From Erysipelotrichaceae bacterium (lineage in GTDB: Bacteria; Bacillota_I; Bacilli_A; Erysipelotrichales; Erysipelotrichaceae): a stretch of 46,569 bases of DNA. Position numbers and translations under genes: made by a program. Shown piece by piece: positions 12,502 through 43,127 of the stretch. How positions within the stretch are numbered: the first letter of the stretch is position 1; every line of letters begins with the position of its first letter. The stretch spans positions 1 to 46,569 of the forward strand of contig WSYG01000012.1 of the NCBI GenBank assembly GCA_009773735.1, in the 5' to 3' direction. The notes under the pieces are model-generated. The model was not told the origin of the DNA and did not search any database. It was given only the letters and a program-made list of their open reading frames with translations.

Positions 12502-13094
12502 AAACTTTAGCACTAGATACATCGCATAGTTATTTGACGATTGCGTTAATTGAAGAAGATCAATTGATCTCTTCGATTCAAAAACCAGCGTTTAAACAAC
12601 AATCTGAAACCATCATGGTTGAGATCGATCGGATGTTTAAAGAAGCCAACTGGAGACCAACAGATCTGCAAGCCTTGGTTTTAACCGATGGACCAGGCAG
12701 TTATACTGGACTTAGGATTTCAATGACTGTGGCGAAAGTATTGGGTTTGGTTCAAGGTATTCAACTTTATACCATAAGTAGTCTTCAGCTTTTAGCCGGC
12801 AATCAACCCAATATTTATGCGGTTATGGATGCGCGTGCCAAACGTGTATATCTGGGGCACTATAAAAATGGTGAACCTGTACATCAAGACATCACCTTAT
12901 CAATTGAAGAGGCGAAAAAAAATCTTGATCCTGAAGCAGTCTTTGTGGGAGATGCACATCTTTTAGGAATGAAAAAGACTGAAGTGGACTGTTCAAAACA
13001 CTTTATCCAACTCAGATCACGTTGGATCAAAGTCGACAATGTGCATACCTTGGTTCCCCGTTACTTGAAAGAAACGGACGATTACGGATTATGA
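12498..13094 (+). CDS. tsaB: tRNA threonylcarbamoyladenosine biosynthesis protein TsaB
   Basis: A 198-residue ASKHA-fold protein, the scaffold partner of TsaD in t6A synthesis. The N-terminal LALDTSHSYLTIAL and the TDGPGSYTGLRISMTVAKVLG motif are diagnostic, as is the AVMDARAKRVYLGHY strand. It lacks the metal-binding HxxxH of TsaD, as expected. Full length. Overlaps tsaE and rimI by 4 bp on each side, so the three are translationally coupled. No strong ribosome binding site is needed or seen. Confidence 0.95.
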   Translation: MKTLALDTSHSYLTIALIEEDQLISSIQKPAFKQQSETIMVEIDRMFKEANWRPTDLQALVLTDGPGSYTGLRISMTVAKVLGLVQGIQLYTISSLQLLAGNQPNIYAVMDARAKRVYLGHYKNGEPVHQDITLSIEEAKKNLDPEAVFVGDAHLLGMKKTEVDCSKHFIQLRSRWIKVDNVHTLVPRYLKETDDYGL

Positions 13095-13525
13095 TTCGAA
13101 TCATGGTTCTTGATGATTTGGAATCTATCCTTGACCTTGAACATCAGTTGTTTAGTTCACCTTGGACCATTGAGAATTATCACTTTGAATTGATGCAGAA
13201 TCCTTTTGGGCATTATGTTGTGTTGGATGAAGAGGGCATCAAAGGATATCTGGGCTTATGGATCCATGATGATGCGATGCAGATCACAACCTTAGGTGTC
13301 GATCTGCAAGTACAAAATAGAGGATATGGTAAGAAACTTCTAGAATATGCCTTGTTGAAGGCAACCCAAGAAGGGGTATCTGTCATTACTTTAGAGGTTC
13401 GCGTATCTAATACCAAGGCGACCCATCTCTATGAGTCTGCCGGATTTAGACAAATCACAATACGAAGAGACTATTATTCTCACCCGGATGAAGATGCGGT
13501 ATTGATGTTAAAACAGATGCGTTAA
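13091..13525 (+). CDS. rimI: Ribosomal protein alanine N-acetyltransferase RimI
   Basis: A 144-residue GNAT enzyme; RimI acetylates the N-terminal Ala of ribosomal protein S18 and possibly other proteins. Motif A is seen as VQNRGYGKKLLEYAL, with LEVRVSNTKATHLYESAGF and the RRDYYSHPDEDAVLMLK tail typical of RimI. The start at 13091 is the ATG in an ATGA overlap with tsaB; the longer frame from 13022 would overlap tsaB by 24 codons. The operon ends at a hairpin that starts next to its stop codon. Confidence 0.92.
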   Translation: MIRIMVLDDLESILDLEHQLFSSPWTIENYHFELMQNPFGHYVVLDEEGIKGYLGLWIHDDAMQITTLGVDLQVQNRGYGKKLLEYALLKATQEGVSVITLEVRVSNTKATHLYESAGFRQITIRRDYYSHPDEDAVLMLKQMR

Positions 13526-13551
13526 GAAGAGCGAAGGTGGCTCTTTTTTTT
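13526..13551 (+). terminator. Terminator after rimI
   Basis: AAGAGC (13527-13532), seven-base loop, GCTCTT (13540-13545), with a run of T to 13551. Confidence 0.85.
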
Positions 13552-13576
13552 GTTGTACAAAGATGTAACCGTTTAT

Positions 13577-13594
13577 ATGTGAAAAATATAACAT
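13577..13594 (+). promoter_or_regulatory. Candidate Rex operator 1 of adhE
   Basis: ATGTGAAAAATATAACAT has the Rex architecture TGTGA-N6-TAACA with symmetric flanks. It lies just upstream of the -35 box of the adhE promoter. A rex gene is 3.9 kb downstream. Confidence 0.65.
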
Positions 13595-13599
13595 ATGAC

Positions 13600-13628
13600 T
13601 TGACTTAACTTTAGATAAGGCATATAGT
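13600..13628 (+). promoter_or_regulatory. adhE promoter
   Basis: TTGACT (13600-13605), 17-bp spacer, TATAGT (13623-13628), close to consensus. It is bracketed by two Rex-like operators; the downstream one covers the expected start of transcription. Confidence 0.8.
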
Positions 13629-13632
13629 GTGT

Positions 13633-13650
13633 ATGTGAAATGAATAACAA
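13633..13650 (+). promoter_or_regulatory. Candidate Rex operator 2 of adhE
   Basis: ATGTGAAATGAATAACAA has the same TGTGA-N6-TAACA layout as operator 1. It spans the predicted +1 position, where bound repressor would block initiation. The two sites start 56 bp apart. Confidence 0.65.
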
Positions 13651-13665
13651 GTCACGGAGGAAAAA

Positions 13666-16308
13666 ATGATTAAGAAAGACACCAATCAATCAATAGAATT
13701 GACACCGATTCAGACCATCGAAAAAGATGTGGATGAACTGGTTAAGAAGGGCATATCTGCTTTAGAAGGGTTTATGCAATTAACCCAGGAACAAATCGAC
13801 TATATCGTTGCGAAGGCGAGTGTGGCAGCACTTGATCAACACGGTGAATTAGCTCTGTTGGCTGTTAAAGAAACAGGTCGAGGTGTATTTGAAGACAAAG
13901 CTACAAAGAATTTATTTGCCTGTGAGTTTGTCGTCAATGATATGCGACATTTAAAAACGGTTGGGATCGTTTCTGAAAACGAATCGACTGGTATTACTGA
14001 AATCGCAGAACCAGTTGGGGTCATCGCAGGAATCACGCCTATCACCAATCCTACTTCTACTGTTATTTTTAAATGTTTGATTTCTTTGAAGACTAGAAAT
14101 CCGATCATATTTTCGTTTCATCCTGGAGCTCAAATATGTTCAGCAAGTGCAGCAAAAATCGTATATGATGCTGCAGTAAAAGCTGGGGCACCACTTCATT
14201 GTATCCAATGGATTCAAAAACCTTCAAAAGAAGGAACAGGTTTCTTAATGAATCATACGGATGTTGCTACAATCTTGGCTACTGGTGGAAATGCCATGGT
14301 CAAAGCAGCCTATTCATGTGGTAAACCTGCTTTAGGTGTTGGTGCTGGGAATGTTCCTGCTTACATGGAAAAAACATGTGATGTTCGTCAAGCTGTCAAT
14401 GACATCGTTATGTCAAAAGCATTCGATAATGGGATGATTTGTGCTTCGGAACAGTGTGTCATCATCGATAAGGAAATTAATGATCAAGCATTATCCCTCT
14501 TTAAAAAATACGGTGTTTATTTCGTTAATAAGGAAGAAAAAGAAAAATTAGAACAATACTGTTTTGGAGTCAATGCGCATAGTCATAATTGTGCAGGTGC
14601 AGTACTTAATTCAGCGATCGTAGGGAAGTCAGCTGATTGGATTGCTAAACAGGCTGGCTTTGAAGTTCCGCAAAATACAGTCATCTTAGGCGTACCAGTA
14701 AAAGAAATAGGTGAGAATGAACCTTGCACACGTGAAAAACTAAGTCCTGTTTTGGCTTTCATTGTTTCAAAATCAACCCAAGAAGGCATTCGTTTCAGCA
14801 AAGAAATGGTAGAATTTCACGGTTTAGGCCACTCTGCAGCCATTCATACCCAAGATAAGAACATTGCAGATGCATTTGGGAAAGCCTGTAAAGCGATTCG
14901 AATCATATGGAACTCACCAGCTACTTTTGGGGGTATCGGCAATGTCTACAATGCCTTTATTCCATCTTTGACACTAGGCTGTGGATCTTATGGTCATAAC
15001 TCAGTTTCCAACAATATCTCAGCCATTAATCTTCTCAACATTAAGCGTATAGGACGCAGAAACAACAATATGCAATGGTTCAAGATCCCATCAAAAATAT
15101 ACTTTGAGCGTAATTCCATTCAATATCTCCAACAAATGAAAGATATTGAAAGAGTGTTTGTGGTAACAGATCGTGCTATGGTCGATCTTGGTTATTATGC
15201 TAAAATCGTAGATCAACTTAACCAAAGAAGAAATAAAGTTCAAATCCAACTCTTTTGTGATGTAGAACCAGATCCTTCTATGGACACTGTTAAGAAGGGC
15301 TTTGAATTGATGAATGCGTTTAAACCAGATACGATCATTGCTTTAGGTGGAGGTTCACCTATGGATGCTGCAAAAGGCATGTGGTTATTTTATGAACACC
15401 CTGAAGTCGATTTCGATGATCTTAAGCAGAAATTCATGGATATCCGTAAACGTGCCTTTAAGTATCCGGAACTCGGTAAGAAAACTCAATTGGTCTGTAT
15501 CCCGACAACTTCTGGAACAGGCTCTGAAGTAACACCTTTCGCAGTATTGACCGATAAACGCGTCAATAAGAAATATCCTTTAGCGGATTACTCCTTGACC
15601 CCTACGGTTGCGATCATCGATTCAACTTTTACAATGAATCTACCCGCATCGGTCACTGCTGATACCGGAATGGATGTTTTGACTCATGCGACAGAAGCCT
15701 ATGTTTCAACTTTAGCTTCCGACTTTACAGATGGTTTATGTCTACAAGCCATCAAAATGGTCTTTGAATTCTTGCCTAGAGCTGTTAAAGATGGTAAAAA
15801 TGATCCTGAAGCAAGAGAAAAAATGCACAATGCGTCTACCATAGCTGGTATGGCGTTCGCTAACAGTTTCTTAGGCATCAATCATTCATTGGCGCATAAA
15901 ATCGGTGGAACATGGCATGTCCCTCATGGTAGAGCCAATGCGATATTACTTCCGCATGTGATCCGTTTTAATGGAACCCATCCTTCTAAACCAGCCACAT
16001 GGCCAAAATATAACTACTATAAAGCCAATGAGAAATATCAGAATTTAGCAAAAATGCTTGGATTACCTGCTGATACGCTTGAACAAGGCGTAGAGTCTTA
16101 TGCTCAAGCTTGTCATGATCTCGCACAAAGCATTGGGATCGTAATGAATCTTCAAACCCAAGGCATTACGCAAGACCAATTTGATTCAGATCTTGACTTG
16201 GTATCGATGATGGCTTATGAAGATCAATGTACACCATGCAATCCTCGCTTACCGCTGGTCAGCGATCTTAAGACCATTCTTCAAAAAGCATATGGTATTC
16301 TAAAATAG
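13666..16308 (+). CDS. adhE: Bifunctional acetaldehyde-CoA/alcohol dehydrogenase AdhE
   Basis: An 880-residue two-domain enzyme reducing acetyl-CoA to acetaldehyde and then ethanol, using two NADH; family members assemble into filaments (spirosomes). The N-terminal aldehyde dehydrogenase domain has its catalytic Cys259 in MICASEQC, preceded by GGNAMVKAAYSCGKPALGVG. The C-terminal iron-dependent alcohol dehydrogenase domain has GGGSPMDAAKGMW, PTTSGTGSEVTPF and the iron-binding segments ADTGMDVLTHATEAY and NHSLAHKIGGTWHVPHG. GGAGG lies upstream of the ATG. It is the main NADH sink visible here. It is monocistronic and sits between rimI and tsaD, interrupting a usually compact t6A gene cluster. 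Confidence 0.97.
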   Translation: MIKKDTNQSIELTPIQTIEKDVDELVKKGISALEGFMQLTQEQIDYIVAKASVAALDQHGELALLAVKETGRGVFEDKATKNLFACEFVVNDMRHLKTVGIVSENESTGITEIAEPVGVIAGITPITNPTSTVIFKCLISLKTRNPIIFSFHPGAQICSASAAKIVYDAAVKAGAPLHCIQWIQKPSKEGTGFLMNHTDVATILATGGNAMVKAAYSCGKPALGVGAGNVPAYMEKTCDVRQAVNDIVMSKAFDNGMICASEQCVIIDKEINDQALSLFKKYGVYFVNKEEKEKLEQYCFGVNAHSHNCAGAVLNSAIVGKSADWIAKQAGFEVPQNTVILGVPVKEIGENEPCTREKLSPVLAFIVSKSTQEGIRFSKEMVEFHGLGHSAAIHTQDKNIADAFGKACKAIRIIWNSPATFGGIGNVYNAFIPSLTLGCGSYGHNSVSNNISAINLLNIKRIGRRNNNMQWFKIPSKIYFERNSIQYLQQMKDIERVFVVTDRAMVDLGYYAKIVDQLNQRRNKVQIQLFCDVEPDPSMDTVKKGFELMNAFKPDTIIALGGGSPMDAAKGMWLFYEHPEVDFDDLKQKFMDIRKRAFKYPELGKKTQLVCIPTTSGTGSEVTPFAVLTDKRVNKKYPLADYSLTPTVAIIDSTFTMNLPASVTADTGMDVLTHATEAYVSTLASDFTDGLCLQAIKMVFEFLPRAVKDGKNDPEAREKMHNASTIAGMAFANSFLGINHSLAHKIGGTWHVPHGRANAILLPHVIRFNGTHPSKPATWPKYNYYKANEKYQNLAKMLGLPADTLEQGVESYAQACHDLAQSIGIVMNLQTQGITQDQFDSDLDLVSMMAYEDQCTPCNPRLPLVSDLKTILQKAYGILK

Positions 16309-17399: not shown

Positions 17400-17429
17400 A
17401 TTCACAATCGTTTGTGAATATGTTATCAT
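17400..17429 (+). promoter_or_regulatory. rex promoter overlapped by an 8-bp inverted repeat
   Basis: ATTCACAA (17400-17407) and TTGTGAAT (17412-17419) form a perfect inverted repeat around TCGT. It covers a possible -35 TTCACA (17401-17406), which is 17 bp from TATCAT (17424-17429). The TTGTGA half-sites resemble Rex half-sites but point outward, so autoregulation by Rex is only a suggestion. Confidence 0.45.
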
Positions 17430-17450: not shown

Positions 17451-18074
17451 ATGTCAAATCATCAAAATGTGCCTAAGGCAACACTACAACGTTATCCCGT
17501 TTATTTAAAAGCGTTACGGAAGCTCCAACACTTGGGGATCAGTCGTATCATGTCGCGTGAACTCTCTGAGTTTGTCGATGTGGAACCGACAACGATCCGG
17601 CGCGATTTCTCGTTTTTGGGATCGCTTGGAAAACAAGGTTATGGTTATGATGTTGGTAGTCTCATAGAAATCTTTGATGCTCATTTGGGTGGATCGTTTC
17701 AAGAGAAATTGATCATCGTAGGGGCTGGTAATCTGGGCCGCGCTTTGATGAATTATAACCGGTGGAATCATGTGGTAGGGGAAATTGCCTGTGCCTTTGA
17801 TGTTAGTGCCGATAAAGTTGGAAATGCCTATGAGATCCCTGTTTATCCGATGAGCCAACTGAAAGAAAAATTGCCTGAAGGATGCCGTATCGCCATCTTA
17901 TCGATTTCTTCCAATGTTCAAGAAACCGTTGATTTACTGGTTGAAGTCGGAATCAAAGGCATTGTAGATTTTACCCATGAACACATACAGGTCCCCAAAG
18001 GGGTGACCGTTAAAGCCGTCGATGTTGTTTCTATGATCCAGGAACTGGTATTTGAAACAAACGCGATGAAGTGA
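17451..18074 (+). CDS. rex: Redox-sensing transcriptional repressor Rex
   Basis: A 207-residue Rex protein. The N-terminal winged helix (1-78) includes [25 protein letters not shown] and the GKQGYGYDV wing. The Rossmann domain begins [14 protein letters not shown] (88-100) and binds NADH or NAD+; NADH release restores DNA binding. The C-terminal helix swaps between monomers. Normal length. The ribosome binding site is AGGAAGGTG at 17437-17445. Two Rex-like operators lie at adhE in the same window. It is followed after 7 bases by asnS, so it probably begins the asnS-licD-amidase-ABC-F transcript. Confidence 0.96.
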
Positions 18075-42800: not shown

Positions 42801-43127
42801 ATGATGACAGAATCCCATCAAAATCAAACGTTATTGATCAACTTCCATGCGCATCTTTATCGTGCTTTGATGAGTCGTTTAAGATATGGTCATGAGATCG
42901 ATCTTAATCGTGCTTTGAATCCTTGCGATAAGGATTATTTGTTTTTGATTCAAGAAACACTTAAACGATTATCGGATGAAGAACAACGTTTATTGCGTAA
43001 TGATTTCTTAATGCCATCCTCTCGAAACTGGTGGATGAACTACTACTCTAAGAGCACCTATTATCGTTTGAGATACCTTGCGATGAGCCGATTTTTACAT
43101 TGTTTGCACCATGAAAAAATGGTATGA
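42801..43127 (+). CDS. Small HTH-like protein, possibly MG284/MPN403-type
   Basis: A 108-residue basic, helical protein. The C-terminal half reads LLRNDFLMPSSRNWWMNYYSKSTYYRLRYLAMSRFL with YSKSTYYRLR as a probable recognition helix, resembling sigma region 4-like or ArpU-like helix-turn-helix proteins and a family of short Mollicutes proteins of unknown function (MG284/MPN403-like, from memory). No ribosome binding site is clear; two adjacent ATG codons exist at 42801 and 42804. It ends inside the ptsI promoter. Nothing else in the sequence tells its role. Confidence 0.6.
   Translation: MMTESHQNQTLLINFHAHLYRALMSRLRYGHEIDLNRALNPCDKDYLFLIQETLKRLSDEEQRLLRNDFLMPSSRNWWMNYYSKSTYYRLRYLAMSRFLHCLHHEKMV

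Follow-up and report, generated by a model that had tools for sequence, protein, structure and literature searches.

Candidate Rex operators and an adjoining predicted CcpA site at the adhE promoter of an Erysipelotrichaceae bacterium

The adhE promoter of an Erysipelotrichaceae bacterium is bracketed by two sites that are very probably operators of Rex, and a cre-like box, the predicted site of CcpA, shares one base with the upstream operator. We consider it probable, from comparison of sequences, that this is a two-input promoter, activated by CcpA and blocked at both operators by NAD+-bound Rex, and ethanol would then probably be formed only when sugar and NADH are both plentiful. Gram-positive fermenters sense their redox state mainly through Rex and their carbon supply mainly through CcpA. 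It has proved difficult to identify promoters under the direct control of both; ldh1 of Staphylococcus aureus, a well-studied candidate, was found not to be bound by CcpA. Switches of this kind would govern how gut and freshwater Erysipelotrichaceae balance ethanol against hydrogen.

The analysis covered a stretch of 46,569 nucleotides (the window), the genome to which it belongs (G000, a 1.94-Mb draft in 82 contigs) and 98 adhE upstream regions. Throughout, start sites of adhE are those predicted from promoter sequence, and statements on published systems refer to the accessible parts of the reports cited. Elsewhere in the window, a TPP riboswitch (Rfam RF00059; 5849-5948) stands at a ThiT-type thiamine transporter gene, whose true start is probably further downstream, since the listed GTG start (5853) lies inside the riboswitch. 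The segment 34686-44866 contains genes of a V/A-type ATPase, among which Pfam identifies subunits C, I, A and B, and after them an MG284/MPN403-family gene and that of PTS enzyme I.

The adhE promoter region and its two probable operators

The features around the promoter are as follows.

13524..13548, + strand: intrinsic terminator, a 9-bp stem with a T run after it (0 expected in shuffles)
13564..13577, + strand: cre-like box (predicted CcpA site) TGTAACCGTTTATA, 1 mismatch to TGWAANCGNTNWCA, centre at about -64.5 from the predicted start
13577..13594, + strand: ROP1, candidate upstream Rex operator, 18-mer ATGTGAAAAATATAACAT, exact match, centre at about -49.5
13600..13628, + strand: predicted sigma-A type promoter, TTGACT-17-TATAGT, 10 of 12 consensus matches
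13633..13650, + strand: ROP2, candidate downstream Rex operator, 18-mer ATGTGAAATGAATAACAA, exact match, covering the predicted start, centre at about +6.5
13656..13660, + strand: Shine-Dalgarno sequence GGAGG, from sequence
13666..16308, + strand: adhE, bifunctional acetaldehyde-CoA/alcohol dehydrogenase, 880 aa

Judged by profile matches, the product of adhE is a full bifunctional AdhE: it scores 1389.6 bits against NCBIfam NF010378 (cut-off 951) and also matches Pfam Aldedh and Fe-ADH. The closest named relatives of the gene come from uncultured bacteria, one of them labelled Bacillota, and then from Erysipelotrichaceae such as Holdemania, Traorella and Erysipelothrix. A GNAT acetyltransferase gene (13091-13525) precedes the terminator, which parts the tsaE-tsaB-GNAT genes from adhE. 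Because the terminator lies between these upstream genes and the adhE promoter, adhE is probably a transcription unit of its own. The promoter has a -35 hexamer TTGACT (13600-13605) and a -10 hexamer TATAGT (13623-13628) with a 17-bp spacer, and transcription is predicted to start at about 13635.

A preliminary description of this DNA had proposed that two sites of the layout TGTGA-N6-TAACA bracket the promoter, one just upstream of the -35 and the other over the start, and all of this held. Both 16-mers are exact matches, TGTGAAAAATATAACA at 13578-13593 and TGTGAAATGAATAACA at 13634-13649; ROP1 stops 5 bp short of the -35 (in most loci the gap is 5-8 bp), and ROP2 covers the predicted start; relatives too have a ROP at the start region, its centre varying from +4.5 to +19.5. 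They resemble TTGTGAANNNNTTCACAA, the operator form expected in a Rex regulon, one half-site being the TGTTA variant. No other exact match occurs in the 46.6-kb window, for which shuffles give 0.15, and among 20,000 dinucleotide shuffles of the 140-bp adhE intergenic region one match arose in 32 and two matches in 0.

Conservation points in the same direction. Both sites are kept in the sister genomes G001, G002 and G007 and in a more distant family member, G024, with spacings of 56, 56, 57 and 61 bp, respectively. In a footprint alignment of four orthologs, nine of the ten core bases of ROP1 are identical, against 0 of 17 columns in the promoter spacer; the corresponding count for ROP2 (5 of 10) is an underestimate, as ROP2 of one ortholog (L020) is misaligned by a gap. 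At least two operators are present in 28 of the 98 adhE upstream regions, whereas shuffled copies lead one to expect 0.06.

Rex, its other candidate targets and the spacing of the operators

The preliminary description had also pointed to a nearby rex gene, and indeed rex starts at 17451, 3.8 kb downstream. The relevant features, including one on another contig of the same genome, are given below.

17401..17429, + strand: predicted rex promoter, TTCACA-17-TATCAT, 10 of 12 consensus matches, extended -10
17412..17429, + strand: candidate Rex operator TTGTGAATATGTTATCAT over the rex -10, 1 mismatch, the same 18-mer in G001 and G002
17451..18074, + strand: rex, 207 aa (PF06971; NF003989; aligned to solved Rex structures)
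C80:31091-31106 (L208, G000:C80:24500-31250): candidate operator over the -10 of an operon of NuoE/NuoF type, a second, weaker operator lying 34 bp upstream of it

The rex gene is single: the whole genome has one PF06971 match above the cut-off. Its product scores 210 bits against NF003989 (cut-off 177), combines the winged-helix DNA-binding domain PF06971 with the NAD(H)-binding Rossmann domain PF02629, and aligns over almost its full length to the structures 2vt2, 3keo and 3ikv. The site over its -10 is a candidate for autoregulation. In Rex of Streptococcus agalactiae, arginines of the recognition helix contact guanines (PMC8376106), and these arginines are conserved here. Of the DNA-contact residues of that protein, P-K-A, the following Arg, Arg50-Arg51 and Ser54 recur, with Arg62 of the wing replaced by Gln (GKQGYGY). 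All Rex sequences of family f1 that were read (L152-L173) have this Gln wing, as LGKQGYGY or once LGRQGYGY, and the three readable sequences of the neighbouring family f2 have LGKRG. It is a guess that the Gln wing might bear on the tolerance of TGTTA half-sites and thus on mixed TGTGA/TGTTA operators.

Over the whole genome, TGTGAANNNNWTMACA has five exact matches, two of which are those at adhE. The third covers the -10 of a hydrogenase-like, NAD-linked operon on contig C80 and is identical in G001 and G002. The NuoE- and NuoF-like subunits of this operon were identified by test; its other reading frames resemble, by eye, DRTGG, PHP and RsbW/SpoIIE-type proteins. The fourth lies upstream of pgk (C4:3884; L047 site 1501-1516) and is at the same time a perfect cre, TGAAAACGTTAACA; it was not counted as evidence for Rex. 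The pgk upstream sequence TGTGAAAACGTTAACA fits both patterns alike, the two motifs being confusable when the centre is CG. The fifth, on contig C18, falls inside a reading frame and was set aside. Sister species have exact matches at a hypB-like gene and at the starts of [FeFe]-hydrogenase genes. In the genome scan for the pattern, which had been suggested as a check, sites with one mismatch show no excess over a reversed control genome-wide (60 against 62 sites, and 62 against 90 with a longer pattern). For that reason weak sites carry no weight here and exact matches were used. The sites at adhE, rex and the hydrogenase-type genes form, as predicted targets, a coherent set for Rex. A single rex gene with a site of its own, genus-wide retention of the adhE sites amid diverging DNA, and the motif at the hydrogenase-type operon together argue strongly that the two sites at adhE are Rex operators.

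Could a regulator of the Crp/Fnr type, such as Fnr or an ArcR-like protein, use these sites instead of Rex? A TGTGA-N6-TCACA core is common to these families, a Rex motif in L. oligofermentans was initially matched to Fnr (PMC4972977), and the genome does have a Crp/Fnr-family gene, on contig C7, adjoined by a perfect CRP-type palindrome, TGTGATTTGCATCACA. This palindrome (L057 site 1501-1516) stands between that gene and one weakly similar to iron-sulfur repair proteins. It lacks, however, the TAACA half-site, which is found in Rex operators predicted for other bacteria (PMC5886521). Moreover, the outer bases of the adhE sites in sister species (TTG...CAA) and their A/T-rich inner bases are Rex-like, and the motif is present at hydrogenase genes as well as on the promoter of rex itself. 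We therefore regard a Crp/Fnr-type regulator as highly improbable and assign the sites to Rex.

How the two Rex dimers would work together is a separate matter. The preliminary description gave the spacing correctly as 56 bp, centre to centre, and took it to place both dimers on roughly the same DNA face for cooperative repression; such cooperation might involve looping. Both sites do have the same orientation, and Rex of group B streptococcus gives several shifted bands with adhE DNA, for which the authors invoke multiple operators or oligomerisation (PMC8376106). However, 56 bp corresponds to 5.33 turns at 10.5 bp per turn, which puts the sites about 120 degrees out of phase, and the spacings among relatives (30, 42, 56-58, 61, 64-71 and 117-119 bp) have no helical preference when distinct values are considered (R=0.20, p=0.54); over all loci together, the phase averages about 110 degrees off the same face. 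On these spacings the same-face model was rejected, and cooperation of this kind appears scarcely credible. Across adhE loci the place of ROP1 is fixed relative to the -35, while the centre of ROP2 slides, and this arrangement would look like two separate blocks to polymerase rather than a cooperating pair.

A cre-like box joined to ROP1

The cre at 13564-13577 had been missed in the preliminary description. Nine of its 13 columns are identical in the four orthologs, and the same register, with the cre starting exactly 13 bp before the ROP1 18-mer, recurs in 16 adhE loci; in loci of the Erysipelothrix type the order of cre and ROP is reversed and the sites abut. A cre is the commonest element at the 98 adhE loci, being present in 65 of the upstream regions against 5.9 expected from shuffles, and many of these regions have no recognisable Rex site.

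The distances of these boxes from the promoter are not arbitrary. Relative to the predicted start, cre centres fall at about -44, -55, -65, -75, -86 and -96, that is, in steps of one helical turn, and the best period of the distances is 10.25-10.5 bp. For 57 cre in 40 loci, with promoters picked blind to cre position, the concentration of phase is R=0.75; when start positions were permuted among loci in 5,000 trials, R averaged 0.15 and reached 0.47 at most. Relative to the ATG start codon, no such phase is present (R=0.115). The p-values for phasing overstate independence, because the loci are related, and the safer figure is the count on the AdhE tree, on which at least 12 changes of turn class took place. 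Where one promoter has two cre, they are mostly 20-21 or 30-32 bp apart. An [FeFe]-hydrogenase gene shows the same layout in five loci of four sister species: the cre stands at -56.5 or -55.5, and the centre of the Rex site at +6.5. The window's own genome has just a distant homologue of this gene (37% identity), so that support from this layout comes from the relatives rather than from the organism of the window.

CcpA acts in a face-dependent manner and activates from cre boxes upstream of the -35 (PMC3463425), and at adhE, relative to the predicted starts, the cre is both upstream of the -35 and in a face-dependent position. As for the protein itself, the best CcpA candidate of the genome, one of the LacI family, has CcpA chains as its best PDB matches, but its 261 bits fall short of the 442 that NCBIfam sets as cut-off for CcpA; five further LacI-type matches are present. 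The genome also encodes an HPr kinase, above its profile cut-off, and an HPr with His15 and Ser46 (contig C62). A 108-aa gene at 42801, beside enzyme I, was tested as a candidate and is not HPr.

The score below the family cut-off is one point in favour of a simpler reading, in which adhE answers only to Rex, bound at the two operators, and the cre is a relic, or the site of another LacI-family regulator, with no effect on adhE. A precedent is S. aureus ldh1, where a good cre beside Rex sites shows neither CcpA binding nor an effect (PMC3544828). A relic would not be expected to be phased to the promoter, however, nor does this reading sit well with the presence of a cre at 65 of the 98 loci, among them some that have no recognisable ROP; we judge it rather unlikely. 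Another possibility is that CcpA represses adhE from the cre, making Rex and CcpA two repressors, as CcpA of Clostridium difficile represses adhE and a cre lies upstream there (PMC3510511). Here the cre is upstream of the -35 and clear of the promoter, which is the position of activation in Bacillus subtilis (PMC3463425), and the six phased positions from -44 to -96 fit contact with polymerase better than occlusion. Repression by CcpA is therefore quite improbable, and activation is the reading that we retain.

A probable two-input promoter and its relation to known systems

The sequences show the elements and how well they are conserved, the phasing of the cre positions, and genes for Rex, a CcpA-like protein, HPr kinase and an HPr that has Ser46; the two-input reading draws on these. 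From these we infer binding at the sites, the direction of CcpA action, anti-activation through ROP1 and Rex dimers that are independent rather than cooperative. An outline of the process would be as follows: in sugar excess, a CcpA-type activator together with HPr-Ser-P would occupy the cre, some 65 bp before the start and on a DNA face permitting contact between CcpA and RNA polymerase, and adhE transcription would increase. At a high ratio of NAD+ to NADH, Rex would occupy ROP1 and ROP2. At ROP1, flanked by the -35 and by the cre, with which it shares one base, it would block either the activator-polymerase contact or polymerase itself; at ROP2, on the start site, it would block initiation. 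A rise in NADH would release Rex, so that AdhE would be produced under carbon excess with NADH in need of reoxidation.

More speculatively, cre-ROP1 may be an integrating element in which Rex at ROP1 evicts CcpA or insulates it from polymerase, conferring AND logic (high NADH together with excess sugar) on adhE across the Erysipelotrichaceae, with an analogue at the hydrogenase gene and with the positions from -44 to -96 as a natural distance series for CcpA. We offer this wider reading tentatively, as a possibility.

As positions of CcpA as an activator, a few B. subtilis promoters (ackA, pta and ilvB) are commonly cited. To our knowledge, no Rex site fused to a cre is known at these three. 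They are like adhE here in having a cre upstream of the -35, face-dependent activation (as proposed for adhE) and a link to overflow metabolism (PMC3463425), and they differ in that a stepwise series of cre positions across a whole lineage is seen here. S. aureus ldh1 is also a fermentative dehydrogenase gene with a cre upstream of two Rex sites, but no CcpA binds to the cre there and mutating the box is without effect, the response to glucose being indirect and Rex-dependent (PMC3544828).

Paired Rex sites at adhE are already known, according to the accessible text of three reports (PMC3441419, PMC8376106, PMC5886521). The adhE promoter regions of Streptococcus mutans and S. agalactiae have, as here, at least two Rex sites, at which Rex binding is favoured by NAD+ and released by NADH; unlike there, the operators here mostly consist of one TGTGA half and one TGTTA half, and a phased activating cre is not described in the accessible parts of those reports (PMC3441419, PMC8376106). 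In Thermoanaerobacterium saccharolyticum, adhE likewise has two predicted Rex sites, and its expression rises on deletion of rex; these operators are of the TTGTTA type and lie about 119 bp apart, one at -31 and the other at -150, and the accessible text does not report a cre in the composite position (PMC5886521). A fused cre-ROP element and a phased series of cre at adhE met with no description in the open-access literature examined, a set that does not include a large comparative-genomics study of Rex regulons cited by several of its members, and the composite layout and the phased series provisionally appear to be new. To these known systems the comparison of 98 adhE genes adds a precise and testable layout, together with natural positions of CcpA at six turn steps.
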